Virus record (IMG/VR): IMGVR_UViG_3300044701_002278
Location: 1-35,927 of that record
Source: a virus
Length of the DNA: 35,927 nt
Reading direction: 5' to 3' (one strand)
The notes under the pieces are model-generated. The model searched no databases. It was not told the origin of the DNA and saw nothing but the letters and a program-made list of their open reading frames with translations. Every line of letters begins with the position of its first letter. The stretch's first letter is position 1. Shown in pieces: positions 7,396 through 20,027 of this stretch. Made by a program: the position numbers and the translations under genes.

Positions 7396-8793
7396 TTAAA
7401 CCACACCCCTAATCCCACGCTTCAAAGGCTTACCCGCCACCCAGGCCGTCCCGCGACCGCCCACCAAAGCCGCCTGGCCGGCAAACGTCAGACACAACGC
7501 ATCCGCCAAGTCTGGCGACCTCAGGCCCCTCTTCTTCAGCCCGTCCTTACTCTCGACCACCACCTTGCCGGTCGACGTAAACGAATACCGCGGCGCCACC
7601 AGCTCATGCCTCAACGTCTCATCCTTGGGCAGCTTGACCGACCGCGTACCCAGCCAATCCTTCACGCTCAACCACAGCTCGTCCCTCAGCCGGTGGGCAT
7701 TAGGGTTCATGGCAGAACTCTCCGCCACATTCACGTCCCGCACATTCAAACCCATCTCACGCAGCCGGTCCGCCACCCCAGACCCCAAGCCAATCGTGTC
7801 CACACAGATCTCCGCCGGCGCATCCTTCTTGGCCTCATTGACCACCGCACCCACCGTCTGCATCAAATCCAAGCCACCCCAGTGCCGGATCTCCAACACC
7901 ACATTGCCCTTCCTCTTACACAAGGCCGTGCGGTCAGTCCCAAACCGCGCAACGTCTAAGCCATACACCAAAGGCTCCGTCACCCCCACCGTCACGTCCC
8001 GATCCAGCGCCCCATCCACCAATTCCGCCGGTATCAACGTGTCGTCGTCCGCCAGCGCGAACTCACCCAACACCCGGATCCGAAACGCATTGCTGCTCTC
8101 GCCATACGTCGCACCAATCTGCGAAATAAAATCCTTAGACACCAAAGGATTGTTCGCGCACGACACATGCATCCGATGCCAATCCTGCGCCAGGTCGTGG
8201 TGCGTCTTGTAAAACAGCCCGCTGTTGCGCGTCGGGTTACTGATCAAGATCGTGCTCGCACTATGCCCCGACATCGAACCCGCGGCCGCCTCAAACACCG
8301 CCTCCGGCACAGCCGAGGCCTCGTCGACCACCAGCAGCACATGCTCTGAGTGGACACCCGCCAGCGCCTCAGGCCGCTCGCTGCTGCTGGTCCTCACCGA
8401 GATAAAGCTGCTCTCCGGCGCGCCTTTCAACGCAATCCGATCGCTGAAGACCTCGAAACTATCCCGCAACACCGGCGGCAGCTTGTTCACCCAGGTCTTC
8501 AGCTCCGCATACAACGCATCGAACAACTGCGCAGCAGTGGGCGCCGTGACGACACTCTTCTGCGGATAACGCGTCGTCATGTGCCAGATCAAAGCCCAGC
8601 TGCAGGCCGTGCTCTTCCCCACCCCATGACCGGCACGCACACTCAAGCGCCGCTCGCCCCTGGCGATCGCACGCAGGAAATCCTCCTGCCAAGGCAACGG
8701 AACCGCGCCCAACACGTTCCGCACGAAAGCCACCGGGTCGTTCCGATAGGCCTCCAGAAAGCCTAGGAATTGGTTCTTGTCGGTCTCGCTCAT
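7396..8793 (-). CDS. terL: Terminase large subunit
   Basis: ATPase and nuclease of the packaging motor, 465 aa. The Walker A-like motif is VRAGHGVGKST (about 52-62), Walker B VLLVVDEAS (152-160) and a coupling motif lies around ISNPTRNSG (184-192). The RNase H-like nuclease domain shows acidic residues in YGLDVARFG (D280), CVDTIGLGSG (D332) and SPDLADAL (D428/D431). The start ATG 8793 overlaps the small terminase stop (ATGA). Length and motif order are normal for the family. Whether packaging is headful or site-specific cannot be read directly. Confidence 0.96.
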   Translation of the reverse strand: MSETDKNQFLGFLEAYRNDPVAFVRNVLGAVPLPWQEDFLRAIARGERRLSVRAGHGVGKSTACSWALIWHMTTRYPQKSVVTAPTAAQLFDALYAELKTWVNKLPPVLRDSFEVFSDRIALKGAPESSFISVRTSSSERPEALAGVHSEHVLLVVDEASAVPEAVFEAAAGSMSGHSASTILISNPTRNSGLFYKTHHDLAQDWHRMHVSCANNPLVSKDFISQIGATYGESSNAFRIRVLGEFALADDDTLIPAELVDGALDRDVTVGVTEPLVYGLDVARFGTDRTALCKRKGNVVLEIRHWGGLDLMQTVGAVVNEAKKDAPAEICVDTIGLGSGVADRLREMGLNVRDVNVAESSAMNPNAHRLRDELWLSVKDWLGTRSVKLPKDETLRHELVAPRYSFTSTGKVVVESKDGLKKRGLRSPDLADALCLTFAGQAALVGGRGTAWVAGKPLKRGIRGVV

Positions 8794-9500
8794 GCGCCGT
8801 CAGCCTTTTCTATTTTTGGCGCGGCGGCGCGCTTGGCGCGAGACGGGGGGCGGGGGGGGCGAAGTACCTTTTTTGGTGGGTCTGTAGACGGAGGGGTTGC
8901 CGCGCGCACGGGCGCCCCCCGGTGGGGGGCGGGGCCGGGGGGGTTCTGGCCGGCGGCCGCCGGATCCGGGCCGCCGATCGGCAGGCCAGGCGCGGTCGGG
9001 GCCGGGTCGGCCGGACCCGCGCTTTCACCGTGAAAGGTGGGAACATCAATGATATCAGTGGCTTGGCCCTCGATGTACCCGGTCTTCGTACCCGAGACCC
9101 TGCTCGCGAGCTCTTTCAGCGCCTCCAGGTGCAGCGTGTGCGTGTGCGTCACGGTCGCGTCGACCTGCGTCCGATCGCCGTAGAGCTTGGGAAGTAGCCT
9201 CGAGGCCGTCCATTTCTTCGCGTCGATCGCCACGCGGGCGACGTCGGCCGGGATCTCGCCCCGCACGGCCTGCTCGGCCAGGTCGTCGATCCGCTCGGCG
9301 TGCGCCAAGGCCCGCGACTGTATCGCGCGCGTGTAGTCCTCCTGGAAGGAGGAGTCCTCCGACAGCCATCTCCACGTCGTCGTGTGGTTTGGCATGTCGT
9401 CTTCGCGGCAGATGCTGGACAGAGACCGCCCTTCTGAGATGCGGGAGCAGATTTCCTTTAAGAGCTCCGGCGTTTTAATGCTTGGCCTTCCGATGGTCAT
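8790..9500 (-). CDS. terS: Terminase small subunit with Pro/Ala-rich tail
   Basis: Start ATG 9500 is chosen because it overlaps the preceding stop (ATGA); the longer frame upstream is a shadow. The 236-aa product begins TIGRPSIKTPELL and has a helix-turn-helix at about residues 10-55 (EICSRISEGRSLSSICRE, then TTTWRWLSED), followed by helical DDLAEQAVRGE and DAKKWTASRLLPK. This matches the DNA-recognition subunit upstream of TerL. The last ~70 residues are Pro/Ala/Arg/Lys-rich and encoded by very G/C-rich DNA (see the G-run element). It recognises phage DNA to start packaging. Confidence 0.92.
   Translation of the reverse strand: MTIGRPSIKTPELLKEICSRISEGRSLSSICREDDMPNHTTTWRWLSEDSSFQEDYTRAIQSRALAHAERIDDLAEQAVRGEIPADVARVAIDAKKWTASRLLPKLYGDRTQVDATVTHTHTLHLEALKELASRVSGTKTGYIEGQATDIIDVPTFHGESAGPADPAPTAPGLPIGGPDPAAAGQNPPGPAPHRGAPVRAATPPSTDPPKKVLRPPRPPSRAKRAAAPKIEKADGA
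8845..8947 (+). repeat. G-run tract inside terS (possible G-quadruplex DNA)
   Basis: On the + strand there are runs of six and eight G (about 8845-8859), then runs of six, four and seven G near 8932-8943. Four tracts of three or more G with short loops can be drawn. The matching C-runs encode the Pro-rich tail of the small terminase. This could simply be GC-biased Pro coding, or a structural element near a packaging site. No function is established. Confidence 0.5.
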
Positions 9501-9766
9501 GGCATTGGATCTCCGTGCATGGCTTGGCGGTATTCGCTCAGGCTGACGATGTTTTGTCGTCTGAGGCGCTCGAGGCGATCTTGGCGCAGTGCGTGGACGA
9601 TCGTGTCGAGCAGCTCTTTTGCCCAAGCGGTCGTATCTTCATCCCACGCCGTGCCGCTGTTTTCAAGCGCGCTGAGGCTGGCCTGGCATTCCTTGGCTAT
9701 CTCATCCCACACCTGGGCGCACAAGGCGTCTGCGGCTGCGGGATCGGCGTCAGAAGGGTATGTCAT
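9497..9766 (-). CDS. Hypothetical 89-aa acidic helical protein upstream of terS
   Basis: ATG 9766 lies within the last codons of the 190-aa gene (17-bp overlap), and its stop overlaps the terS start (ATGA). The product is acidic in the first half and Arg-rich in the segment RQDRLERLRRQN, with a helical look and one or two Trp. It has no domain I recognise. Its location at the replication/packaging boundary could make it a packaging accessory, but that is context only. Confidence 0.75.
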   Translation of the reverse strand: MTYPSDADPAAADALCAQVWDEIAKECQASLSALENSGTAWDEDTTAWAKELLDTIVHALRQDRLERLRRQNIVSLSEYRQAMHGDPMP

Positions 9767-10322
9767 CGTCTAGGTCCGCGAATGCTGACTTGGATGGGCG
9801 TTGAACGGTCGCGCCTGGGAACGCGGCTTTGGTTGCCTCTGCGAATGCGGCTGGTTGCCATTGGGACCAGGCCAGGAGGAGCTCGGGCAGCGTGACGACG
9901 GTGTCGGGATGCTTGGAGTGTCGCGCTGCTGCGTCGTGGTCTGCTGGGTCGAGGACCACTGTGTAGGGTTTGCCTTCCCAGGTGATCGACCAGGTGTTTG
10001 GTGGGTTTGGACTGTGGCCGGCTTCGGTCGCGGCTTTGTCCAGGGCTTGCCATCCGCGGTGCAGGACTTGGGCGCGGTGCAGGACGGTGGGCACATCTCC
10101 ATCTCGGATTGCCTCGTCCAGTTTCTGGGCTGCTGATCCGAACTTGTGTGCCAGGTCGAAGGGGACCAGGCGCGGCAGTCTGTTGGCTCCCCACTTGGCT
10201 TCCATGTCTGCTGCCATCTTGTCGAGTGGTGCGAGCGTCGCGGCCATGTCTCTTCCGCGCGTCCAGGGTTCGTTGTTCAGATGGGCCTGGTCTGAGGTCG
10301 AGAGGCGTTTCACTTGGCTCAT
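9750..10322 (-). CDS. Unrecognised 190-aa protein with SSB-type C-terminal tip (DDDIPF)
   Basis: Starts at ATG 10322, just beside the iteron array. The first ~115 residues look helical (for example AQKLDEAIRDGDVPTVLHRA), followed by a small mixed region (SITWEGKPYTVVLD). No OB-fold is evident. The chain ends ADLDDDIPF, and the final six residues equal the tip of E. coli single-strand binding protein, which docks DNA-repair and replication partners. The protein may therefore recruit host SSB-interacting factors to the phage origin or compete for them. The tail codons overlap the next gene by 17 bp, so the motif is kept despite double coding. Function beyond the tail is unknown. Confidence 0.78.
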   Translation of the reverse strand: MSQVKRLSTSDQAHLNNEPWTRGRDMAATLAPLDKMAADMEAKWGANRLPRLVPFDLAHKFGSAAQKLDEAIRDGDVPTVLHRAQVLHRGWQALDKAATEAGHSPNPPNTWSITWEGKPYTVVLDPADHDAAARHSKHPDTVVTLPELLLAWSQWQPAAFAEATKAAFPGATVQRPSKSAFADLDDDIPF

Positions 10323-10339
10323 GGTTCAGATCCTGTTTT

Positions 10340-10464
10340 GTCACGCTCGTGACCGTGACACCGTGACACCCTTAAGGGTGTTGTCACGTTGTCACGCCCC
10401 CTCGAAAGCGTCGCTGTCACGCTGTCACGCTCATGTCACGGTGTTTTGTCACGCTCATGTCACG
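10340..10464. repeat. Iteron-like array of 11 GTCACG hexamers
   Basis: Eight forward GTCACG copies (10340, 10383, 10391, 10416, 10424, 10435, 10448, 10459) and three inverted copies (10348, 10354, 10362) fall in 125 bp. Several are extended to TGTCACGCTCAT or GCTGTCACG. The inner inverted and direct copies flank an interrupted palindrome centred on CCCTTAAGGG. The array fills the gap between the primase-helicase gene and the 190-aa gene and runs into the last codons of the former. This resembles replication-initiator iterons or a multi-site operator. Confidence 0.85.
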
Positions 10465-12647
10465 CTCCTTTCGGTCGTTTCCTTCTCCGTGATCCACCAA
10501 ATCTTCCCCTGGTTGGTCGCCAAGCTGCGGTCCTTGATGGTCTGCTTGGCCCGGTGGAAGGCTTGCCGGCGAGCGTCTCCGTCTGCCGTTGTCTCCTGGT
10601 GGAAGTAGGTTCGCCATGTCTCTTCCTCGACGCATCGGGCTGAGAATGGGATGTGGTTGGACGGGACATGGTCGCCGTGATTGGCGATTGCTTTGCGGAG
10701 CGCCGTCATGGCGTCGGCCAGGTTGCCTTTGAGCTTGGGCTGTTTCCGGGCTGGCTCGATCGGGCCTGCGAGCGGTTCCAGGGCCAGGGACGTGGCGTCT
10801 GGATCCAGGCTGGACAGCTGGACCGTGACCATGCGGTAGCCGATCTCGATGCCGTCTTCGCCGTCCTTCTGCTTGGTCACCTTGAGCTTGCCGATGCGCT
10901 CAGGGCTGTCTTCGTCCGAGATCTTGGTGACCTCCAGCTCGGCGTCCACGGCGCCCAGGAGCGAACTGTGTCCGCGCTGGCCTTTGGCTTCGTCCTTGCC
11001 TGAGTGGTGGACGATGAGGATTGCGCAGCTGAGTGCGTCTTGTAGCGCCCCGACGATGGAGATGAAGGCGCCCATGTCCTCGCTGCTATTTTCGTTGCCG
11101 CCGGCGAAGGCGCGGGCCAGCGTGTCGACGACCAGGAGCTTGGGCGTCAGGCCTTTGTTCTTGATGGCTTGGATCAGGGCCTCGGCGTCTTCCATGGTCG
11201 ATCGCAGGTTCAGCTGCGCCTTGACGAAGGCGATGGGCGTGCTGTCGGGCAGGTTGTGGTGCTGCCGGCAGGCGTCCCAGCGTCGCTTGAGGCCTGCGCC
11301 CCCTTCGCCGGCAAGGTAGACGACGTCGCCCTGGTTGGTAGAACGGGCGAAGGCGTCTGTGCCGTTGGCAATCGCGCTGGCCAGGTAGAGGGCGCAGAAG
11401 GACTTATAGCTGCCGGGCTTGCCGTACAGGGCGCCGAAACCCTTGGCCGGCAGCAGCTGGTCGATGAGCCAGGTGATGGGCTCGTCCTTGAGCTCTTGGG
11501 CCATGATCAGGTGGATGCGCGGCTTGGGTTCTGCCGGGCTTGTGGCGACCTCTGTGCTGGCCTTGGGCGCCGCCTGGTGCTTGGCGTTGATCTGCTCTGC
11601 GATCGTGGGCTCGGGCGGCCTGATGGCCCTCAGGGCGGCCTTGCGGTCTCCGTTGTGCTGGAAGGTGGCGTACAGGTCGAAGGGGTCCGTGAGCTTGCTC
11701 GAGAGCGGGTCTTCGATGCCGTGATGGGAATAGACGCACCAGTGGCCGTATGCGCCCTTGAAGACCACGACGCCGGCCGTGCCTGAGGTCGAGCCTGGCC
11801 TGATGTACCGATAGGCCTCGCCCCCTGGGCCGTGCGGATCGCGGTAGACGAACTTGTAGCCCTGCCCTTCCAGGGTGCTGCGTACCCAGGCCAGGTCGTG
11901 GGCATTGTTGAAGGCGTCGATCGCGCTGGGCGCGTCGGGCGTAAGGACAGTTGTCGGCGCTGCGGTCGTTGTCGGCGCGGCGGTCGAGAAGTGCTGCTCG
12001 ACGGCCTGCTGCTTTTTGCGCTCCTTGTGCCAGGCGACGGCCTTGGCCACGTCCATGGCAGGACCGTCGTGCCGATGGCTCTTGAAGGCGCTCACGGCCT
12101 CCTGCGTGCCGACGCGGGGCATGTACCAGGGTTGAGACCAGCGCCTGTTCTCCGGCACGTCGGTGATGAAGATGCCGCGCGCGTGCAGCTGGTCGACCAG
12201 GTAGGTGACGACCGCGTCGAGCTCTGCCGGCGACTTCATGCGTGCCGGGATAAGGATGCGGTACTTCCAGACGGTTCCTGGGACGTAGCTATGCGTCGTG
12301 TGGGCGAAGAAGCCCACGCCGATGTCTTCCATGGCGGCGATCGCGTCGGGCAGTGGCGGTGCGCCTGGCTGGATCTCGCCGGTCTCGGGGTCGAAGCTGC
12401 TGTCTCCGTCGATGATGCAGAGATCGGCTTCCTTGAGGTTCTCGTCGGCGCGGCGCGGTTCGACCAGGTCGCCGCCTCTGACGTAGTAGCTGCCGTCCTT
12501 TTGTCCGACCTTGGGTACGGACAGGCGCCGGCAGAATTGATCCCAGGGAATATCTTTGACGGACAGCGAAACGTCGGTGCGTCCGTTAGCTGCCAGAGCG
12601 ATTTTCAGTCTGGCATTTTCGTCAGTTGTTGTTATATCTTGAGACAT
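10455..12647 (-). CDS. Primase-helicase: AEP-like primase domain fused to RepA-like AAA_25 helicase
   Basis: A 730-aa replication protein. N-terminal residues ~70-200 look like an archaeo-eukaryotic-type primase: acidic motif CIIDGDSS (D80, D82), then HTTHSYVPG and KYRILIPA. After a Thr/Ala/Pro linker (~220-240) and a middle region, the RecA-like helicase has Walker A LYGKPGSYKSF (~407-417), Walker B KLLVVDTLARAF (~503-514) and the HHSGK sensor (~547-551), as in RSF1010 RepA-type hexameric helicases. The C-terminus resembles a winged helix. It would prime and unwind the phage origin. The gene's 3' end is inside the iteron array. The active-site calls are by eye. Confidence 0.9.
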   Translation of the reverse strand: MSQDITTTDENARLKIALAANGRTDVSLSVKDIPWDQFCRRLSVPKVGQKDGSYYVRGGDLVEPRRADENLKEADLCIIDGDSSFDPETGEIQPGAPPLPDAIAAMEDIGVGFFAHTTHSYVPGTVWKYRILIPARMKSPAELDAVVTYLVDQLHARGIFITDVPENRRWSQPWYMPRVGTQEAVSAFKSHRHDGPAMDVAKAVAWHKERKKQQAVEQHFSTAAPTTTAAPTTVLTPDAPSAIDAFNNAHDLAWVRSTLEGQGYKFVYRDPHGPGGEAYRYIRPGSTSGTAGVVVFKGAYGHWCVYSHHGIEDPLSSKLTDPFDLYATFQHNGDRKAALRAIRPPEPTIAEQINAKHQAAPKASTEVATSPAEPKPRIHLIMAQELKDEPITWLIDQLLPAKGFGALYGKPGSYKSFCALYLASAIANGTDAFARSTNQGDVVYLAGEGGAGLKRRWDACRQHHNLPDSTPIAFVKAQLNLRSTMEDAEALIQAIKNKGLTPKLLVVDTLARAFAGGNENSSEDMGAFISIVGALQDALSCAILIVHHSGKDEAKGQRGHSSLLGAVDAELEVTKISDEDSPERIGKLKVTKQKDGEDGIEIGYRMVTVQLSSLDPDATSLALEPLAGPIEPARKQPKLKGNLADAMTALRKAIANHGDHVPSNHIPFSARCVEEETWRTYFHQETTADGDARRQAFHRAKQTIKDRSLATNQGKIWWITEKETTERSVT

Positions 12648-18920: not shown

Positions 18921-18947
18921 GCGGGGTACAAACCAATGGAGATGGCA

Positions 18948-20027
18948 ATGAAGGTGACCAAATTTGAGCGTTCCCCTGGCGTCTGGCGGATCCGCATCGA
19001 GACCAAGGACGAGGCCGGTCAGCGGAAATTCAGCACGGAAACGCTGAAGGGATCAGAGATCGACGCGGAAGCGCGGCGCATCGAGATCCTCAAGAGCCAC
19101 CGCGCCGGCGACCTGGTGCAGGTGACAGACGACACCGTGAAGCAGCACTGGACCCGCTGGCAGGCCAAGCGCGTCGCGCTGAAGGCGATCTCAGAGCTCA
19201 CGGCCCAGGGCCAGGCGGTGCTGATGGCCCCCTTCCTGCGCGACTACGGCGCCCGCCCTCTTCGCTCCATCACGGGCGACGACATTGAGGCCTTCTACCT
19301 GGGCCGCATCCGCCAGGTCGCGCCCGGCACGATGACCGTCACGCACCACCACCTCAAGGCCCTGTTCAACCAGGCCGTGGAGGCCGGCGTGCTGACCAAG
19401 AACCCCATGAAGAAGGTGGCCGCGCCCAAGGGCGAGAGCGATCCCCGCAAGCCCCTCGAGAAGCGCCATATCAAGGCCCTGCTGGCCTATGCGGCCGACA
19501 AGCCCTTCCTGTCGCGCATGCTCCGCCTGGCGCTGCACACCGGCATGCGCCGCGGCGAGATGTGCGCCCTTCGCTGGTCCGACGTCGACCTCGAGCTGGG
19601 CGTGATCAACGTCTCCCGCACGATCGTGCGCATCGGCACGGTCGAGTACGAGAAGAAGCCCAAGACCAAGAAATCCATCCGCTCGATCCGCCTGCCCAAG
19701 GTTCTGATCGAGGAGCTGCGCGCAGCTGCCCAGGCGCCCAACCGCCCGGTCCTGGTCACCAAGTGGGGCGATCGGCCCACCCTGTCCTACATGACCAGCG
19801 CCACCAAGGACGCCTTGCGCGCCATCGGCCTGGACGAGGGCTACTGCCTGCACTCCACCCGGCACAGCCACGCCACCCACCTGCTGCGCGAAAAACTGCC
19901 GCTGAAGGCGATCTCTGAGCGCCTGGGCCATGCCAACGTGGAAGTGACCCTGGCGGTCTACGCCGGCGTCCTGACCGGCGACGACCAGGCCCTGGCGGAC
20001 AGCATTGAACGGGTAATGGCGGCGTGA
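18948..20027 (+). CDS. int: Tyrosine recombinase integrase
   Basis: A 359-aa phage integrase for site-specific insertion into the host chromosome. The SAM-like core-binding domain lies at about 55-145 and the catalytic domain at about 160-350. Catalytic residues: R201 (HTGMRRGE), Lys in the PKTKKSIRSIRL hairpin, H302 and R305 (HSTRHSHATH), H328 (LGHANVE) and nucleophile Y338. ATG 18948 is preferred over 18936 and 18942 because GGAG sits six bases upstream and the predicted transcript starts near 18927. The complete active site suggests it is functional. It lies alone on the + strand with the candidate attP just downstream. Confidence 0.95.
   Translation: MKVTKFERSPGVWRIRIETKDEAGQRKFSTETLKGSEIDAEARRIEILKSHRAGDLVQVTDDTVKQHWTRWQAKRVALKAISELTAQGQAVLMAPFLRDYGARPLRSITGDDIEAFYLGRIRQVAPGTMTVTHHHLKALFNQAVEAGVLTKNPMKKVAAPKGESDPRKPLEKRHIKALLAYAADKPFLSRMLRLALHTGMRRGEMCALRWSDVDLELGVINVSRTIVRIGTVEYEKKPKTKKSIRSIRLPKVLIEELRAAAQAPNRPVLVTKWGDRPTLSYMTSATKDALRAIGLDEGYCLHSTRHSHATHLLREKLPLKAISERLGHANVEVTLAVYAGVLTGDDQALADSIERVMAA

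Follow-up and report, generated by a model that had tools for sequence, protein, structure and literature searches.

A heptamer-hairpin array behind a RepA-type phage helicase gene as a probable replication origin read by the helicase's own predicted winged helix

What could a dense cluster of short repeats be doing directly behind a replication gene in a viral genome? The question is raised by the IMG/VR record IMGVR_UViG_3300044701_002278, of which the whole stretch of 35,927 nt is called here the window, and all positions given are window positions. As an earlier note on this DNA had counted, 11 copies of GTCACG are present, 8 on the plus and 3 on the minus strand, all inside 10340-10464 (Table 1). 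Its judgement that such a density lies beyond chance was borne out, as 200 shuffles of the whole window, each preserving dinucleotides, never packed more than 3 copies into 125 bp, and a whole-window scan found no other heptamer cluster of more than 4 copies. Ten of the 11 copies belong to the 7-mer TGTCACG (plus strand), which is CGTGACA on the gene strand (minus), and the remaining one is CGTGACC; the functional unit of the array is this 7-mer, not the hexamer. On the gene strand, five forward heptamers are followed by an 18-nt spacer, two forward heptamers, the palindrome that the note had recognised inside the array, two inverted heptamers, one degenerate inverted copy and one forward copy. 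The core matches its own inverted copy at 83% identity, and its inward-facing heptamers flank the hairpin CCCTTAAGGG.

Table 1. Features of the repeat array and its neighbouring genes, in window positions.
Feature	Position	Strand	Basis or remarks
Candidate origin array: 10 exact TGTCACG/CGTGACA and 1 CGTGACC	10339-10464	both	motif positions, shuffles
GTCACG starts, plus strand	10340, 10383, 10391, 10416, 10424, 10435, 10448, 10459	+	
GTCACG starts, minus strand	10348, 10354, 10362	-	
Repeat block A, five forward heptamers directly at the helicase stop codon	10415-10464	-	
Block A heptamers	10458-10464, 10447-10453, 10434-10440, 10423-10429, 10415-10421	-	
18-nt spacer, block A to core	10397-10414	-	similar spacer in L006, L010, L011, L015
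Core: two forward heptamers, hairpin, two inverted heptamers	10354-10396	both	
Core forward heptamers	10390-10396, 10382-10388		
Core inverted heptamers	10362-10368, 10354-10360		
Central palindrome/hairpin ACACCCTTAAGGGTGT	10366-10381		in relatives sequence varies, pairing kept (core CCCT-nn-AGGG)
Outlying forward heptamer past the core	10339-10345	-	outlying copy also in L006, L010, L011, L015, L033
Replication protein of 730 aa: probable primase at the N-terminus, helicase of RepA type, winged helix predicted at the C-terminus	10455-12647	-	
N-terminal residues 1-345, in which DGDSSFDPETGE and HTTHS-like motifs are invariant	11613-12647	-	AEP-like by the invariant acidic motif alone
RecA-fold helicase domain, residues 376-631	10755-11522	-	closest solved structure RSF1010 RepA
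Candidate heptamer reader: residues 642-719 at the C-terminus, predicted winged helix	10491-10724	-	pLDDT about 85-95, coevolution
Recognition helix predicted within the winged helix (residues 691-706)	10530-10577	-	correlates most strongly with the heptamer
p190, conserved unannotated 190-aa protein	9750-10322	-	follows array in most IMG/VR relatives

The start of the array coincides with the stop codon of the gene for the 730-aa replication protein. The array had been thought to run into the end of this gene and to create repeated SVT codons there; it does reach the stop codon, but a single SVT only is found. The sole Pfam match of the protein is AAA_25, and its nearest PDB entry by sequence is RSF1010 RepA (1g8y, E 1.7e-7), with which the AlphaFold2 model of the helicase superimposes with a Z score of 23.4 over 221 residues. 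Residues 642-719 are predicted to form, in order, a helix, a strand-helix, a helix and two strands, which is the winged-helix (WH) pattern; a sequence profile of this domain retrieved no relative from PDB or Pfam. The motifs of the N-terminal domain recall archaeo-eukaryotic primases (AEP), and the domain is likely a primase, a name kept at that strength because PDB, Pfam and profile-profile comparisons returned no match to confirm it.

We fetched 74 IMG/VR loci as helicase relatives, 75 with the window, and called an array where a heptamer cluster within 2.5 kb behind the helicase gene was reached by no shuffle. Arrays were called at 59 of the 75 loci (window counted), with 24 different heptamers, and 52 of the 59 sit within -60 to +260 of the helicase stop codon. 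The layout recurs in the relatives: a block of forward heptamers, a spacer, and inward-facing heptamers flanking a hairpin. The heptamer is lineage-specific (CGTGACA, CGGGACA, CAGCACA, CGACGGA and CGTAAGA, among others), and within one array all copies switch together. CGTGACA is kept in the window and in its 92% and 75% identical relatives, the spacers of which differ. At the loci L011-L014, with a helicase 73% identical to that of the window, CGGGACA stands in place of CGTGACA at all eleven exact copies, and the array of L033 is made of 11 copies of CAGCACA. This simultaneous replacement of every copy is as expected if one DNA-binding protein reads them all.

Some relatives depart from the pattern. 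In L020, L068, the L074 group and L080 no array could be called, the repeats being either missing or too weak, and loci without a callable array make up about a fifth of the viral set and two fifths of the bacterial-genome set described below. In L015, L018, L019, L024, L044 and L202 it is displaced by about 0.3-2.1 kb from the helicase stop (by 1-2 kb in all of these but L015) and stands directly ahead of the gene for p190. In five loci (L026, L035, L037, L041, L042) one heptamer lies inside the locus's own WH coding sequence, about 49 nt before the helicase stop. The primase module varies in front of a constant helicase, WH and array: it is of the unassigned window type, a Prim-Pol (L037, L040, L069), a TOPRIM/zinc-ribbon module (L035, L045, L053), or a separate gene (a TOPRIM gene in L211).

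A second set of 80 loci from bacterial genomes, 79 of them testable, was collected after its criterion had been fixed, namely that the count of the top heptamer within -60 to +400 of the stop exceed that in 40 shuffles and be at least four. Here again an array was found, at 49 of the 79 loci and with 30 different heptamers. By comparison, four copies were reached by 26 of 595 control windows taken at these loci (Fisher test, p = 1e-34) and by 2 of 74 windows centred on other non-coding gaps. Conservation of the repeats with changing sequence, the check proposed in the earlier note, is what both sets display. Among isolate phages, a window-like layout was identified in Roseobacter phage CRP-831 (repeat TGTATAAA), Rhizobium phages 16-3 (heptamer GCGTGACA, 10 copies) and RHph_N65 (GCGGAGA), Idiomarinaceae phage 1N2-2 (CGGTACA), Vibrio phage 1.076 (CGGACA) and Burkholderia phage BcepGomr (AAAATAA), each array standing behind a gene whose annotation reads RepA-like helicase or primase. 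Four plasmids, from the hosts Methylobacterium, Xanthobacter and Caenibius, share the layout, and M. currus encodes its primase apart, in a TOPRIM gene immediately upstream. The arrangement was not found in Caulobacter GB2A, Gordonia Trine or Polaromonas pPNAP03. This helicase gene is followed closely by such a site in numerous viruses, prophages and plasmids.

The hairpin was tested in an iteron-anchored manner, by comparing the stem in the gap between inward-facing copies with the expectation from the composition of that gap. The stem is longer than composition predicts (p<0.05) at 37 of the 46 viral loci and 42 of the 47 bacterial-genome loci examined for it, p-values that are somewhat optimistic because the best gap was picked. 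Its sequence is often CCCT-nn-AGGG, elsewhere AACTCTATAAGAGTT, TAAAAACGC(CGGT)GCGTTTTTA or ATTACGTGTAT(ATATA)ATACACGTAAT, and at some loci the heptamers themselves make the stem. The odd loops argue for a hairpin over a plain dyad. A hairpin could also act in RNA, as a terminator or attenuator, or the next gene's translation could be governed by coupled short peptides, as the earlier note had supposed from ATGA overlaps. With DNA parameters, a single strand of the region indeed gives a better fold than shuffled sequence does (z = -3.0), and ATG/TGA overlaps are present in the array region. The hairpin carries no T-tract of a terminator, however, and no Rfam family reached its gathering score. 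The peptides exist on paper, but their ATGs are missing from the 92% and 75% identical relatives, the differing spacers of L006 and L010 lacking them. The occurrence of heptamers in both forward and inverted orientation points to double-stranded sites, and an RNA element is scarcely credible.

What lies beyond the array bears on two further readings. The note had placed the array between the primase-helicase and packaging genes; the helicase side of this holds, but the next gene, that of p190, is not a packaging gene, and the terminase genes come after it. The start of the small-subunit gene is 0.7 kb from the array, and the repeats might be a packaging (pac/cos) site read by the small terminase. 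The array nevertheless stays behind the helicase in plasmids and in phages with no annotated terminase in the examined stretch; because it persists in plasmids and away from terminase genes, a packaging site is excluded as a general explanation, and we regard it as the least probable reading of all. Alternatively, a repressor, perhaps the replication protein itself, might bind the heptamers as a large operator controlling the downstream gene, the second possibility raised in the earlier note. The array does lie between two co-directional genes and overlaps the expected promoter region of the p190 gene, and iterons often autoregulate too. Against this, no sigma-70-like promoter was found in 10000-10800, and the conserved features are the position 3' of the helicase and the hairpin, with no promoter. 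Arrays are also present in Rhizobium phages 16-3 and RHph_N65 and in the Xanthobacter plasmid, where the following annotated gene runs in the opposite direction. Because arrays persist without a co-directional following gene, the operator reading is weakened and seems to us very unlikely as the main function, though the array may have a side role in autoregulation.

The cumulative GC skew, also suggested as a check, was uninformative, turning at about 8.75 kb, at the TerL/TerS junction and 1.7 kb off the array. At 8750-9000 both GC and AT skew flip sign while the flanking genes remain on the same strand, possibly a module boundary. The window also encodes an integrase (PHROG 1) at 18936-20027 (plus strand), an SU10-type portal and an Sf6-type small terminase, from which the phage looks temperate; a tRNA scan found none.

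Which protein reads the heptamers? Heptamer distances, computed free of shift and strand over 84 distinct loci, correlate with distances between WH domains at r = 0.53 and with helicase distances at 0.31. In partial correlations over the same loci, the WH given the helicase retains 0.45 (p = 0.0005), and the helicase given the WH -0.01. When the protein was cut into 15-residue segments, the highest correlation (0.54, N = 84) fell on residues 691-705, the predicted recognition helix, followed by the other three segments within 646-690 (0.40-0.44), all helicase segments being at or below 0.33. A set of 36 loci gave the same outcome. Among the 26 closest viral loci, the WH partial correlation is weak (0.13, p = 0.09), and the heptamer correlates near equally with the helicase, the WH (0.36-0.39) and p190 (0.33-0.37). 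Mutual information between residues and bases picked no WH residues, deep clade differences at one heptamer position dominating. The heptamer, a kind of password, and the protein segment predicted to read it change in step, and we infer that the WH of the 730-aa protein binds the CGTGACA heptamers. The primase is unlikely to be the reader, because arrays are kept when its modules are exchanged (Prim-Pol, TOPRIM, window type).

The main remaining rival is that the array is an origin read by another protein, either p190, as RepC stands beside RepA in RSF1010, or a protein of the host. No match to p190 was found in Pfam, PHROG or NCBIfam, and its family counts 64 matches among the fetched loci. 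Its C-terminus, DDDIPF, resembles the SSB tip, and many members end in DDDIPF, DDEIPF or NDDLPF; the helicases of L019 and L022 likewise end in DDIPF/DDMPF. That p190 follows the array in most IMG/VR relatives, that displaced arrays usually still precede it, and that its correlation in the 26-locus set comes near that of the WH would all suit such a role. However, among annotated array carriers the p190 profile matches in just one plasmid out of four and two phages out of seven, and a host reader would leave lineage-specific heptamers that track the WH unexplained. We therefore consider another reader unlikely.

The array, its fixed place behind one helicase family, the iteron-hairpin layout, the concerted change and the correlation of the heptamer with the WH and not the helicase were all computed directly. 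The array presents clustered direct repeats beside a candidate initiator gene, the arrangement by which an iteron origin is recognised, and its interpretation as the phage replication origin, first offered in the earlier note, is strongly supported by the comparison with relatives. It is likely, and we hold this with some confidence, that the origin is read by the helicase's own WH and that the helicase loads there. The origin would then lie in cis, immediately 3' of its initiator's gene. The WH would bind both the forward block and the pairs of heptamers that face each other across the hairpin, and so gather the RepA-type hexameric helicase, which would be loaded without a separate loader, rings assembling on the two inward-facing sets of heptamers. 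The hairpin core could be where the DNA first opens, or a recognition site of the exposed strand, and the fused or neighbouring primase would make a primer for extension by the host polymerase.

More broadly, and with more reserve, we favour the view that these loci represent a widespread class of self-contained replicons, apparently not described before, which occurs in phages, prophages and plasmids, for the most part those of Proteobacteria. In this class, a fusion of an RSF1010-type helicase and a WH would read its own rapidly diversifying heptamer-hairpin origin behind its gene, load itself and work with primase modules that can be exchanged, be they of the window type, a Prim-Pol, a TOPRIM or the product of a separate gene, the heptamer defining the incompatibility group. 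A search of the open-access PMC literature turned up no account of origins of this kind behind phage helicases of the RepA type. If this is true, the origin could be placed, with no need of an experiment, in numerous phages, prophages and plasmids where a "hypothetical" gap comes after a RepA-like helicase, and more than 80 natural pairs of heptamer and WH recognition helix would be material for a DNA-recognition code. It would also offer a possible account of how a RepA/DnaB-like ring helicase reaches double-stranded DNA without a loader. One might further suggest that co-infecting phages coexist or exclude each other according to their heptamers.

Several known systems resemble parts of this arrangement. 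In SaPI Rep and SCCmec Cch2, short iterons lie directly downstream of the gene for the initiator helicase and are read by its C-terminal domain, a self-loading helicase is proposed, and for Cch2 the iterons are AAGTG in three copies, the inverted repeats being dispensable for its binding (PMC7581432, citing Ubeda et al. 2007). The window iterons are likewise directly 3' of a candidate initiator gene, the protein of which has a predicted WH that appears to coevolve with the heptamer; the helicases differ, being of the Primase_Cterm/D5_N or DUF927 kind in those elements and of the RSF1010 RepA type, with AAA_25 the only match, in the window. The IncQ plasmid RSF1010 has an oriV, iterons for initiation and short hairpins (ssiA/ssiB) that are exposed for priming and recognised by an AEP primase, all served by RepC, RepA and RepB' (PMC4234260, PMC4538821). 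With it the window shares a homologous helicase (E 1.7e-7, Z 23.4), iterons, a hairpin and a probable primase next in line, but RSF1010 employs three separate proteins, RepC reading the repeats, whereas the window has one polypeptide with a WH, and repeats of 7 nt. Searches with the proteins encoded near the array in the window gave no RepC match.

The alpha protein of P4, the helicase of which belongs to another superfamily, is similarly a single multi-domain protein; its primase is TOPRIM, which the N-terminus in the window is not and that of some relatives is. Primase, helicase and a repeat-reading DNA-binding domain are joined in this one protein (PMC4234260). In pRN1, ORF904 combines an AEP, an SF3 helicase and a C-terminal WH with an essential 3' stem-loop, the pairing of which is conserved rather than the sequence, and phage examples have been proposed (PMC4234260). 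The window also has a stem-loop 3' of the gene, with a shorter stem, conserved pairing and varying sequence, but its helicase is of the RepA/RecA fold, and the pRN1 stem-loop is about 100 nt long and without iterons. Phage NrS-1 unites a prim-pol and a helicase in one protein that forms an AAA+ ring, and an 8-nt sequence is recognised for priming (PMC8775771). The likeness lies in a phage primase and helicase within one protein and in a short recognised sequence; the difference is that in NrS-1 the prim-pol/helix-bundle part, through residue Y261, does the recognising. By analogy, the mechanism proposed here would join in one replicon features documented separately in SaPI Rep/Cch2, pRN1 and RSF1010.
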